From assembly GCF_016862575.1 (NCBI RefSeq), contig NZ_BONF01000010.1, forward strand, positions 124,001 through 188,000: a stretch of 64,000 nucleotides of DNA, written 5' to 3'. The notes beneath the pieces are model-generated. The model did not search any database. It saw only the letters and a list, made by a program, of their open reading frames with translations, and had not been told where the DNA came from. This document shows positions 39,701 to 42,700 of the stretch, one piece after another (positions within the stretch are counted from its first letter, which is position 1; each line of letters begins with the position of its first letter). The stretch comes from Catellatospora bangladeshensis. Its GTDB lineage: Bacteria > Actinomycetota > Actinomycetes > Mycobacteriales > Micromonosporaceae. A program made the position numbers and the translations under genes.

Positions 39701-42700
39701 GAACCAGACCGCGCGCAGCACCCGGCCCGTGTCCGGGTCGAGCGCGCCGGTCGCGGCGGCCGCGTGCTCGGCCAGCAGGCTGGGCAGCTCCTTCTCATCC
39801 ACCGTGGACAGGTCCACGCGGGTCAGCAGGTCGACCGCGGACACGGTCCCGGCCGGCTCGGCGCGCAGGGTCCACAGCACGGAGGCGATGCGCTGCAGGC
39901 GCAGCCGGAGGCCGTCGTGATGGTCGAGCACGCGCTGCAGCGTCGCGGCGATCGCGCCCTGGTCCGCCCCGGCGGGCGTGACCAGCAGCATCGGCAGCGT
40001 GAACCGCTCGATCGGGGCACCGGTGTCGCGCAGCCAGTGCACGATCGGCAGCAGCGGCACGTCTCCCACCCCGTCAGCGGGCACCGATGCTTCGGACGGA
40101 GGCAACTTCTGGGTTGCCAAGGCAACCCCTGTGTTGCCGGCATTCGCGGAGTCCTCCACCCGAGCCAGTTCGGCCAACCGTCGTGGTGTGCGCGCGGCGA
40201 GCACGTCCCGCGGGCTCACCACGATCCCGGCCCGCCGAGCCCGGCTGGATACCCCGATGGACAGGATGCTGTCCCCACCGAGCGCGAAGAAGTCGTCATC
40301 CGCCTCGACGCTCGCCACCCCCAGCACCACCGCGAAGATCCCGCCCAGGACGCCCACCGGCCCATCCAAGATCGTCCGACTTGCCTGGCAGTCGGGCGTA
40401 TCTTGAGCGCACATACGGCCATGTGCCTGGCAAGTCGGACGATCATGGGACGGCGCGGACGGCGCGGACGGCGCGGACGGCGCGAGCGCGGACGAGGGCG
40501 TGGGGCGGGGGGCGGGGAGGGCGGCGCGGTCGAGTTTGCCGCTGGGGGTAAGGGGCAGCGCGTCGAGGACGACGAACGCGCTCGGGACCAGGGCCGGGGG
40601 CAGCGCGGCGGCGGCCGCCTCGCGCAGCGACACCGCGTTGAGGAAGTGCCCGGCGGTGGGGACGGCGTACGCGACGAGCTGGGTGCCGCCGGGGCCGTCG
40701 GTCCGGGCCACGACGGAGGCCTGGGCCACGTCGGGCCGGGCGGTCAGCCACGACTCGATCTCGGCAGGGTCGATGCGCACCCCGCGCACCTTGATCTCGT
40801 GGTCGGTGCGGCCGGCGTAGACCAGCGTGCCGCCGGATTGGCGTACGACCAGGTCACCGGTGCGGTACATGCGCTCCCCCGGCGCGCCGTACGGGTCGGC
40901 GACGAAACGTGACGCGGTCAGCGCGGCCCGGCCCAGGTAGCCGCGCGCCAGCTGCACGCCGGAGACGTACAGCTCGCCGGGCACCCCGTCGGGCACCGGG
41001 CGCAGGCAGTCGTCCAGCACGTACAGGCCGGTGCCCGCGACGGGACCGCCGATCGGCACCGCCGCGCCGTGGCCGCCGTCGTTCGGCCACCAGGTGACCT
41101 GCACGGCCGTCTCGGTCGGGCCGTAGAAGTTGTCCAGCCGGGTGCCGGTGGCCGCGTACCAGCGCCGGGCCAGCTCACCGGTCACCGCCTCGCCGCCGCA
41201 GGAGACCCAGCGCAGGTCACAGGCCCAGGACGGGTCCGCGACGACCTCGTCGGCGAGCAGGAACGCCTCCACCATGGACGGCACGAACGTCACCGCGCTG
41301 ACCCGGTGCGCGCGCATCAGCTCGGCCAACTCGGCCGGGTCGTGCTGGGCGCCCGGCGCGGGCAGCACCACGGCGGCCCCGGCCGTGAGCGGCCAGAAGA
41401 TCTCCCACACCGACGTGTCGAAGGTCGCCGGGGCCAGTTGCAGCATCCGGTCGGCGGCATGCAGACCGAAGGTGCGCTGCGACCACTCCAGCTGCGCGAC
41501 GATGGCCCGGTGGCTGACCAGCACCCCCTTGGGGCGGCCGGTCGAGCCGGAGGTGTAGATGACGTACGCGGGGTGCTCCGGGTCGACCCGCGCGGGCTCA
41601 CCCACGGCCTCGCCCGCGTCGGCGAGCACGTAGGACAGCCCGTCCCGGCGGGGCAGGCGCGGCAGCAGGTCCGGGCTGGTCACCACGAGGGTCACCCCGG
41701 CGTCGGCCAGCACCGCGGCCAGGTTCGGGTGCGCCGGGTCGACCGGCAGGTACGCCGCACCGGCGTACAGCACCCCGAGCATCGCCGTGACCTGCTGCGC
41801 CGAACGCGGCAGCGCGACGGCGACGACCCGTTCCGGTCCCGCGCCCCGCGCGGTGAGCCGAGCGGCGAGCGCCGCCGCGCGCCCGGCGAGCCCGGCATAG
41901 CTGAGCTGCTGCTCGGCGTCGATCACAGCCACCGCGCCGGGGGTCCGCACCGCTTGCGCCGCGACCATCCCGGCCAGAGAGCCGACGGCCCGCCGCACGT
42001 CCGGTGCCGCCACGGCGGCCGGGGGCAGCTCCCCGCGCAGCGGCGCCACGCGCACGCCCAGGTCGACCGCGCCGGCGGCCAGGTCCGGCGTGTCGAGCAC
42101 CGCGTCCAGCAGCGCGGGCAGGCCGTGCTCGATGCGGGCCAGGGTGACCGCGTCCAGGCGCGCCGGGTCGTACTCGACGACGAGGGACAGCGCGTCGCCC
42201 GGCGTGGCGAGCAGGCTCACCGGGTAGTGCGTGGCCTCGCGGTAGGACACACCCCCGACGCGCACGGTGCCGGAGGCGTCGCGCAGCTCGCCGGGGTCGG
42301 GCAGGTTCTCGACGGTGACCAGGGTGTCGAACAGCTCGGTCCCGGCCAGCCGGGTGATCGCGGGCAGGCCCAGGTGCTGGTGGTCCAGCAGCGCTGTCTG
42401 CGCCGCGGCGAGCCGGTCCAGCACCCCGCCGAGCGTGTCGTACGGAGACCAGGTCAGCCGCACCGGCACCGTGTTGATGAACAGGCCGATCATCGACTCG
42501 ATGCCGGGCACGTCGGTGTCCCGCCCGGACACGGTGCTGCCGAACACCACGTCCCGGCGGCCGGTGAGGCGGCCCAGCAGCAGCCCCCACACGCCGTACA
42601 GCACCGTGCCCGGGGTCAGCCCCCGCGCGCGGGCCAGCGCCGCGAGCCGCGCCCCGGTGCCCTCGGCCACCGCGATCGCGACCTGCCGCACCTCGCCCCG

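Follow-up and report, generated by a model that had tools for sequence, protein, structure and literature searches.

Here we present a genus-wide, REP-like family of hairpins of about 80 bp in the soil bacterium Catellatospora, and our best explanation, held with a little more belief than doubt, is that these hairpins make or shield the 3′ ends of transcripts, most likely by acting as bidirectional terminators that lack a U-tract. The sequence basis of this explanation is the copy number, a hairpin on both strands, some covariation, a bias towards convergent gaps and positions after stop codons, near exclusion between hairpin families, and the presence of other such families at some empty orthologous sites. 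From these features we infer a putative role in transcription termination or 3′-end protection. The window, by which we mean the whole stretch of 64,000 nucleotides that was analysed, was placed in its genus through named relatives of its NRPS gene, the best five of 68 loci being Catellatospora. Two copies of the element lie in it, and the features concerned are these:

30788..46687, minus strand: multi-module NRPS gene, an open reading frame of 5299 amino acids, with the element between its AMP-binding_C and PP-binding
40370..40444, minus strand, that of the reading frame: palindromic element in the NRPS gene, 75 bp, 25 codons
40367..40447, no strand assigned: extended unit C-AA-GATC...GATC-AT-G, 81 bp, the flanking consensus of 97 copies
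40448..40491, minus strand: 9-bp tandem repeat of Ser-Ala-Pro codons adjoining the NRPS element, part of a hypervariable linker
1681..1755, no strand assigned: second copy, between two convergent genes, one metallophosphatase-like (end 1679) and one LigD primase-polymerase-like (end 1766)

A sequence-only reading of the window had described the NRPS copy as a 75-bp palindrome with GATC at each end and inverted ends matching at 20 of 21 positions, adding 25 sense codons in the A2-T2 linker and 65/75 identical to the intergenic copy, and all of this was confirmed, the linker being that between AMP-binding_C and PP-binding; terminal inverted repeats, as in MITEs, are thus present (20/21). The further statement that it measures exactly 75 bp from a codon boundary depends in part on which ends are chosen, since conservation extends beyond GATC and the conserved unit is about 81 bp: A/T accounts for 90-93% at the two positions outside each GATC (97 copies) and for 2-25% at the ten positions that follow on each side, and beyond the A/T pairs there is a C at -3 in 80 and a G at +3 in 82 of the 97 copies. 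The same reading had nearly all frames through the element open and four cysteines added; in fact four of the six frames are open in 142-148 of 153 copies and the other two in only 57 and 87, and the NRPS insert has three cysteines. Both strands of both window copies fold far more stably than dinucleotide shuffles (z -7.4 to -10.4, 0/200 each). A weight matrix built from 27 copies in the genome, the NRPS copy included, matches only these two places in the window and nothing in the reversed window, which rules out a chance repeat. Rfam gave no match in the window at gathering score, and a known Rfam family was rejected on that ground.

The reading's claim of a dispersed palindromic family, which an absence of further copies in the genome was to argue against, stands. 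A half-site pattern occurs 147 times forward and 157 times in reverse in the window's genome, which has 8.83 Mb in 115 contigs, as against 22 and 29 for a control, and nhmmer on 2.4 Mb of the complete sister genome G007 (28% of it) returned 49 matches at E <= 0.1, 48 of them strong, with none in the reversed sequence; together these counts indicate very roughly 150 copies per genome for these two genomes. The 48 strong copies each span at least 73 of the 75 positions, the sole partial match being one weak (16-bit) match, and with 33, 9 and 7 matches in 1.6, 0.4 and 0.4 Mb of G007 a strongly uneven distribution was rejected. By DNA, the element was matched in all 11 Catellatospora genomes examined. 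In G009 the half-site pattern is not above control (33 and 34 vs 33 and 27), and a copy from G008 used as query gave 59 matches there, on both strands; in G004, G008 and G009 the arms are of other sequence and the stems are compensated. Two copies about 1.1 kb apart (G007:C1:1085299-1085373 and 1086385-1086459; L006 in the window's own genome; L327; L311) are common to four genus genomes, in two of which the flanks are just 72-89% identical to G007, and given this divergence the sites look very old.

Outside the genus, a DNA search of 50 other genomes of the family and order found nothing at E <= 0.001, and a covariance model matched 17 of 250 family genomes, 11 of the 17 being Catellatospora. 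One genome beyond the genus, G028, has a single clear sequence relative between convergent genes (L366, 1501-1573), and a further locus of it, L382, keeps AAGATC...GATCTT and GTGCCTGGCAC with the core absent. The matches read in G272, G019 and G063 look unrelated (L368, from G272, has neither arms nor the CGWATCTTG loop in common), as do L383 and L384. Searches of the open-licence literature gave no description of this hairpin family among the papers listed. The stem-loop sequence families of bacterial genomes in PMC2267715, whose table includes Corynebacterium and Mycobacterium, are likewise repeated and foldable as stem-loops; its text has neither 'streptomyces' nor 'actino'.

The copies are concentrated at gene 3′ ends. 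By the calls of a home-made gene caller, the 48 strong G007 copies fall into 20 convergent gaps, 22 tandem (same-strand) gaps, 4 divergent gaps and 2 genes, and 18 of the 22 tandem copies are nearer to the stop of the upstream gene. Among G007 gaps of at least 90 bp, with the weak 16-bit match included, the element occupies 20 of 156 convergent, 23 of 604 tandem and 4 of 286 divergent ones, an occupancy of convergent gaps that is 3.4 times that of tandem and 9 times that of divergent gaps (Fisher p = 2.5e-6 for convergent vs remaining gaps). The 49 distinct copies considered in the window's genome, which are the best-matching or first-listed ones and not a random sample, comprise 20 convergent, 20 tandem and 2 divergent copies, 1 at a contig end, 3 wholly inside a called gene and 3 that reach 1-6 bases into a gene end. 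A fixed orientation relative to genes was rejected, 8 of 23 tandem copies in G007 being on the gene strand.

High copy number and a mainly extragenic location near 3′ ends are also what is described for REPs, most of which sit near 3′ ends, separating convergent or same-strand ORFs, and some of which, in several species, are wholly within ORFs (passages of PMC3733652). The likeness is in multi-copy palindromes near 3′ ends with some copies inside ORFs, and ORFs are not the common location here (2/48 copies in G007; 3/49 wholly within a called gene in the window's genome). The REPs treated in those passages, of the GTAG and CGTC types, measure 20-40 bp and carry an unpaired tag at one end, the GTAG type being accompanied by RAYT genes (Di Nocera et al. 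2013, PMC3733652), whereas our element is about 80 bp long and symmetric, with paired GATC ends, no GTAG/CGTC tag and no Y1 match in the window's genome. The text of PMC3733652 has no word starting with 'actino'; the RepRanger paper (PMC12306157) has a table that gives REP counts of three Actinomycetota genomes.

The mean fold is nearly the same on the two strands (-48.6 and -48.7 kcal/mol, 96 copies). In 44 chosen copies, the GATC ends are paired in every one, double-changed cells number 71 vs 42.8 in shuffles (0/500), and the covariation score is 0.132 vs 0.079 (0/500), with slid controls at most 0.058; two of five measures in this set are not above shuffles, namely pairs with a double change (10 vs 9.0, 121/500) and further pair types (29 vs 27.9, 194/500). 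Compensated changes occur at stem positions 9/67 and 11/65. Conservation without pairing is seen on the loop side TATCTTG (CGTATCTTG) and at the two A/T positions outside each end, and a hairpin extended by these A/T flanks was rejected, pairing there being no higher than in shuffles. The hairpin is GC-rich and sits at 3′ ends, as in a canonical intrinsic terminator, and the U-rich tract of such a terminator is missing (mean 1.28 U in the 8 nt after the hairpin; at least 4 U at 3 of 192 ends), so that this class was rejected. In the favoured explanation, a hairpin at gene 3′ ends would end transcripts arriving from both sides, as a terminator of the U-lacking kind. Term-seq of Streptomyces clavuligerus reports U-lacking, highly structured 3′ ends and bidirectional ends (PMC8269248); these too have a stable hairpin without a U-tract, and the passages in question describe no repeated sequence family. 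SPRITE and other terminator-like MITEs are also repeated with a terminator-like hairpin, whereas the present element has neither U-tract nor target-site duplication (PMC10969869, in the part cited). Among the matches in 2.4 Mb of G007, no parent insertion sequence with the same ends was noticed.

A selfish palindromic element, akin to Rickettsia palindromic elements or REPINs and moved by a transposase in trans, with the 3′ location as the place of least harm, would be another account, which we consider unlikely. The filled and empty sites between species that the sequence-only reading proposed to look for do exist and speak for it. Other species supplied 55 copies (51 loci), of which 15 were testable in G007, 5 being filled and 10 empty; these tests correspond to 3 filled and 7 empty distinct G007 sites, and 3 of the 7 empty ones hold another hairpin family. 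The empty sites lie mostly in intergenic DNA that differs widely, so a clean footprint is not readable there. The intergenic copy of the window is filled in the window's genome, G007 and G003 and empty in G006, G001, G002, G010 and G005 (3 filled and 5 empty of 8 syntenic genomes), and three further genomes do not have the two genes side by side. The two insertions into proteins in an identical frame, described below, and the filled and empty genes at the second of them (6 and 4) also favour this account. Against it, all 18 testable sites are filled in both the window's genome and G007 (18 of the 49 copies, with both flanks in the examined part). No target-site duplication was found (k = 3-9, 0/96; k = 2, 26 vs 19.5 in shuffles), and a MITE that makes such duplications was rejected accordingly. 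Y1_Tnp has no match in the window's genome or in 4 other genus genomes; it is matched in 6 of the 11 examined, with 7 of 9 matches in open frames of 150-157 aa, and a RAYT-driven REP was rejected for the window's genome on this basis. Neither remnants nor a version with longer inner sequence were seen in 2.4 Mb of G007, the strong copies all being nearly complete; in addition, divergent gaps are avoided too, and the slots are common to other hairpin families. Of the mobile palindromic element first proposed, dispersal, filled and empty sites and an in-frame position in two unrelated proteins are supported; no difference was seen between the two closest genomes, and neither a target-site duplication nor a transposase partner was found. 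Orthologous copies of the window's genome and G007 are closer (0.937 identical) than paralogous ones (0.851), the orthologue being the best match in 13 of 18 cases, which argues against frequent copying between family members.

The precedent originally invoked, that of the Rickettsia palindromic elements, fits as far as a palindrome in frame in proteins goes (PMC10969869, PMC3733652, in part), but the main location of this family is the 3′ end of genes. Of the Rickettsia elements reported first, nearly half were in ORFs (a passage of PMC10969869), as against 2 of 48 in genes in G007, and phylum and sequence differ as well. REP copies, too, are found within ORFs of several species, so Rickettsia is not alone in having in-frame palindromes (PMC3733652, in the part cited).

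In the NRPS, the element forms residues 254-278 of a 534-aa piece, between AMP-binding_C (148-223) and PP-binding (288-346). An orthologue is found in 8 of the 11 genus genomes, and the element is present in all 8 in identical frame, in a linker whose part ahead of it ranges from 2 to 21 residues; its entry into the gene is not recent. The sequence-only reading also held that the same residues in synthetases of many genera would count against it, and this was not seen: a model of the element matches 5 of the 68 related NRPS loci, all five from Catellatospora, so that within the loci searched these residues occur in a single genus. The insertion is thus probably older than these species and younger than their split from other genera, or it was lost there. 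In the copies of the six more distant species the pairing has partly decayed.

The search for copies inside other genes, suggested at the outset, yielded one further in-frame copy, in a membrane protein of the GT87 family:

L007, 1222-2625: GT87-family gene (Pfam E 4.3e-18), with the element at 1501-1575 in the same frame as in the NRPS

From a reading of its sequence, the element appears to lie in a loop between hydrophobic segments. The gene is filled in six genomes (the window's genome, G007, G006, G005, G010 and G003) and empty in four (G001, G002, G008 and G004), and G009 looks empty from tblastn pieces alone. Filled genes also have extra codons adjoining the element, which makes the exact insertion unreadable. 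Altogether the element stands in frame in 8 NRPS and 6 GT87 genes. In our proposed mechanism, two copies would have landed in tolerant linkers, the A-T linker of the NRPS and the GT87 loop, in one frame, and would have been kept across species. Both are natural examples of a 3′-end hairpin repeat that persists in frame within a protein, one of them with empty sites in congeners, and they serve as a warning that linkers in NRPS models may be repeat-derived. The copies of L007 and L039, the latter at the C-terminal end of a gene, adjoin low-complexity codons, as the NRPS copy adjoins the Ser-Ala-Pro repeat.

Within both genes, the nucleotides of the element seem to vary less than their codons would allow. 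The tests of this use 25 codons from each of the two genes and compare them with 1015 residues around the element in the NRPS and with the stretch read in GT87, the comparison windows being overlapping and of shared ancestry. Over eight species, the NRPS element shows synonymous differences of 0.083 where the windows average 0.228, and none of the 773 windows is as low as the element; over the six more distant species the values are 0.055 vs 0.192 (0.003 of 783 windows as low, about 2), over four of these six 0.042 vs 0.177 (0.013 of 795, about 10), and the closest pair of genomes shows no effect (0.091 vs 0.126, 0.455 of 820 windows as low). The GT87 element gives 0.035 vs 0.239 over six species (0 of 54 windows as low) and 0.025 vs 0.188 over four (0 of 49), again without effect in the closest pair (46 of 93 windows as low). 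Third-position GC is 56% (NRPS) and 52% (GT87) in the elements vs 96% and 94% in the genes. Entropy at the three codon positions is 0.13/0.32/0.26 in the NRPS and 0.27/0.29/0.20 in the GT87 element, compared with 0.26/0.32/0.64 in 60 NRPS codons and 0.06/0.06/0.48 in 11 GT87 codons, and substitutions in neither element are biased to the third position. Site variability in the two elements correlates with that in 145 other copies, whose context was checked for part of them (rho 0.49 for NRPS, 0.55 for GT87). Given low synonymous variation and no third-position bias, the nucleotides themselves seem to be maintained inside both genes, beyond what the protein code asks. What is maintained is probably the DNA or RNA form, either through selection or through copies taken from elsewhere in the family, each of which would give the pattern seen.

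It is very improbable that the NRPS segment is instead a conserved peptide, for example a metal-binding one with Cys and His, whose conservation the DNA merely follows. Such a peptide would agree with the single frame, with the C..C/H pattern in 8 NRPS orthologues and with the similar GT87 peptide. However, in the GT87 element the residues vary more than in other windows (amino-acid identity 0.693 vs 0.802) and the synonymous sites less, the cysteines are not kept (DHSTCQAGGGKRAQDTHECQ of GT87 has two), and 43 of the 49 copies of the window's genome lie outside called genes. The in-gene element would rather evolve by nucleotide rules of its own. A terminator within two genes should be costly unless hidden by translation, and this counts against the termination reading; whether a terminator-like repeat acts in a gene or is silenced by translation becomes testable here.

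A further account, doubtful and with a modest chance of being right, makes the element a recognition site for a protein or an RNA, through the CGWATCTTG loop or through a half-site TTGCCNGGCA in each arm. The half-site is itself a hyphenated palindrome, with 42 bp, or about four helical turns, from one centre to the other. The conservation of unpaired loop and flank positions favours a recognition site, as does the in-gene sequence kept out of step with codons. A set of hairpins from another genus, g61, bears on it as well:

L365, 1501-1569; L367, 1501-1561; L369-L377; L379-L381: multi-copy hairpins of genus g61 with the CGAATCTTG or CGTATCTTG loop

Two genomes of this genus, G072 and G124, have 18 and 32 covariance-model matches at E <= 0.1, and 12 of the 13 matches read have arms GCGCTGGATCAGGG..., quite unlike those of Catellatospora, around the CGAATCTTG loop, a likeness that is partly selected for, the search model itself containing the loop. 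L365 (G072) and L367 (G124), the latter carrying GTATCTTG, are of the same kind; their alignment and further g61 pieces show a homogeneous family. A similar loop on other arms lowers our confidence in a pure terminator and raises it in a recognition site; a pure terminator requires neither conserved loop and flanks nor a loop kept across genera, and both count against it. Set against a recognition site are the rarity of its parts outside elements in 2.4 Mb (the half-site TTGCCNGGCAA just twice, with 6 for the control pattern, and GTATCTTG alone 4 times, with 3 for the control), the compensated variation of the stem, and the 3′-end bias, which it does not predict. The in-gene nucleotides and the cross-genus loop would fit a role at the nucleic-acid level that tolerates translation, or a bound partner.

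The bidirectional, U-lacking terminator that we favour is bound up with the other occupants of 3′ ends. A comparison of 1332 G007 gaps of 40-600 bp revealed further repeated hairpin families, whose models find 119 (F1), 33 (F2), 21 (F3), 9 (F4) and 5 (F6) copies in the 2.4 Mb and none in the reversed sequence; F1, GAAGGGCACCTTCTT...AAGAAGGTGCCCTTC, derives from a single-linkage cluster of 221 gaps, and its refined model gives 119 matches. A member of the six families is present in 94 of 262 convergent gaps, 110 of 869 tandem gaps and 15 of 330 divergent gaps, and only one of the 94 occupied convergent gaps holds members of two families. Our element shares 1 gap with the other five, vs 5.7 expected (p = 0.009), or 1 vs 5.4 among gaps of at least 90 bp (p = 0.011); at 120 bp or more, where few gaps remain, the exclusion is not significant (1 vs 2.7, p = 0.19). 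In-gene calls of the other families number 10 in all and may be gene-calling errors. Element-free gaps, in samples of 60, gain at least 10 kcal/mol over shuffles in 33 convergent, 14 tandem and 1 divergent cases, and element-bearing gaps are not above element-free ones on this 60-nt measure (convergent 7/18, tandem 9/15). Near exclusivity, together with hairpins in element-free convergent gaps, suggests that the 3′-end slot needs one hairpin and that the families seem interchangeable.

We advance tentatively, as a possibility only, the wider reading that Catellatospora ends many of its transcripts with a handful of interchangeable, mass-produced hairpin cassettes, one of which has twice become a portable protein insert in one frame, functional in the gene as DNA or RNA with its codons subordinate, and that the loop, not the arms, persists between genera. 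That six families share gene-end slots nearly exclusively suggests that a cassette-like spread of terminators is possible in GC-rich actinobacteria. The window itself has three F1 copies at gene 3′ ends (48200-48251, 53486-53536 and 57548-57599), two of them between convergent genes, and one F2 copy (GCAGTTTCGGGGAAAC...) between convergent genes at 51801-51860.
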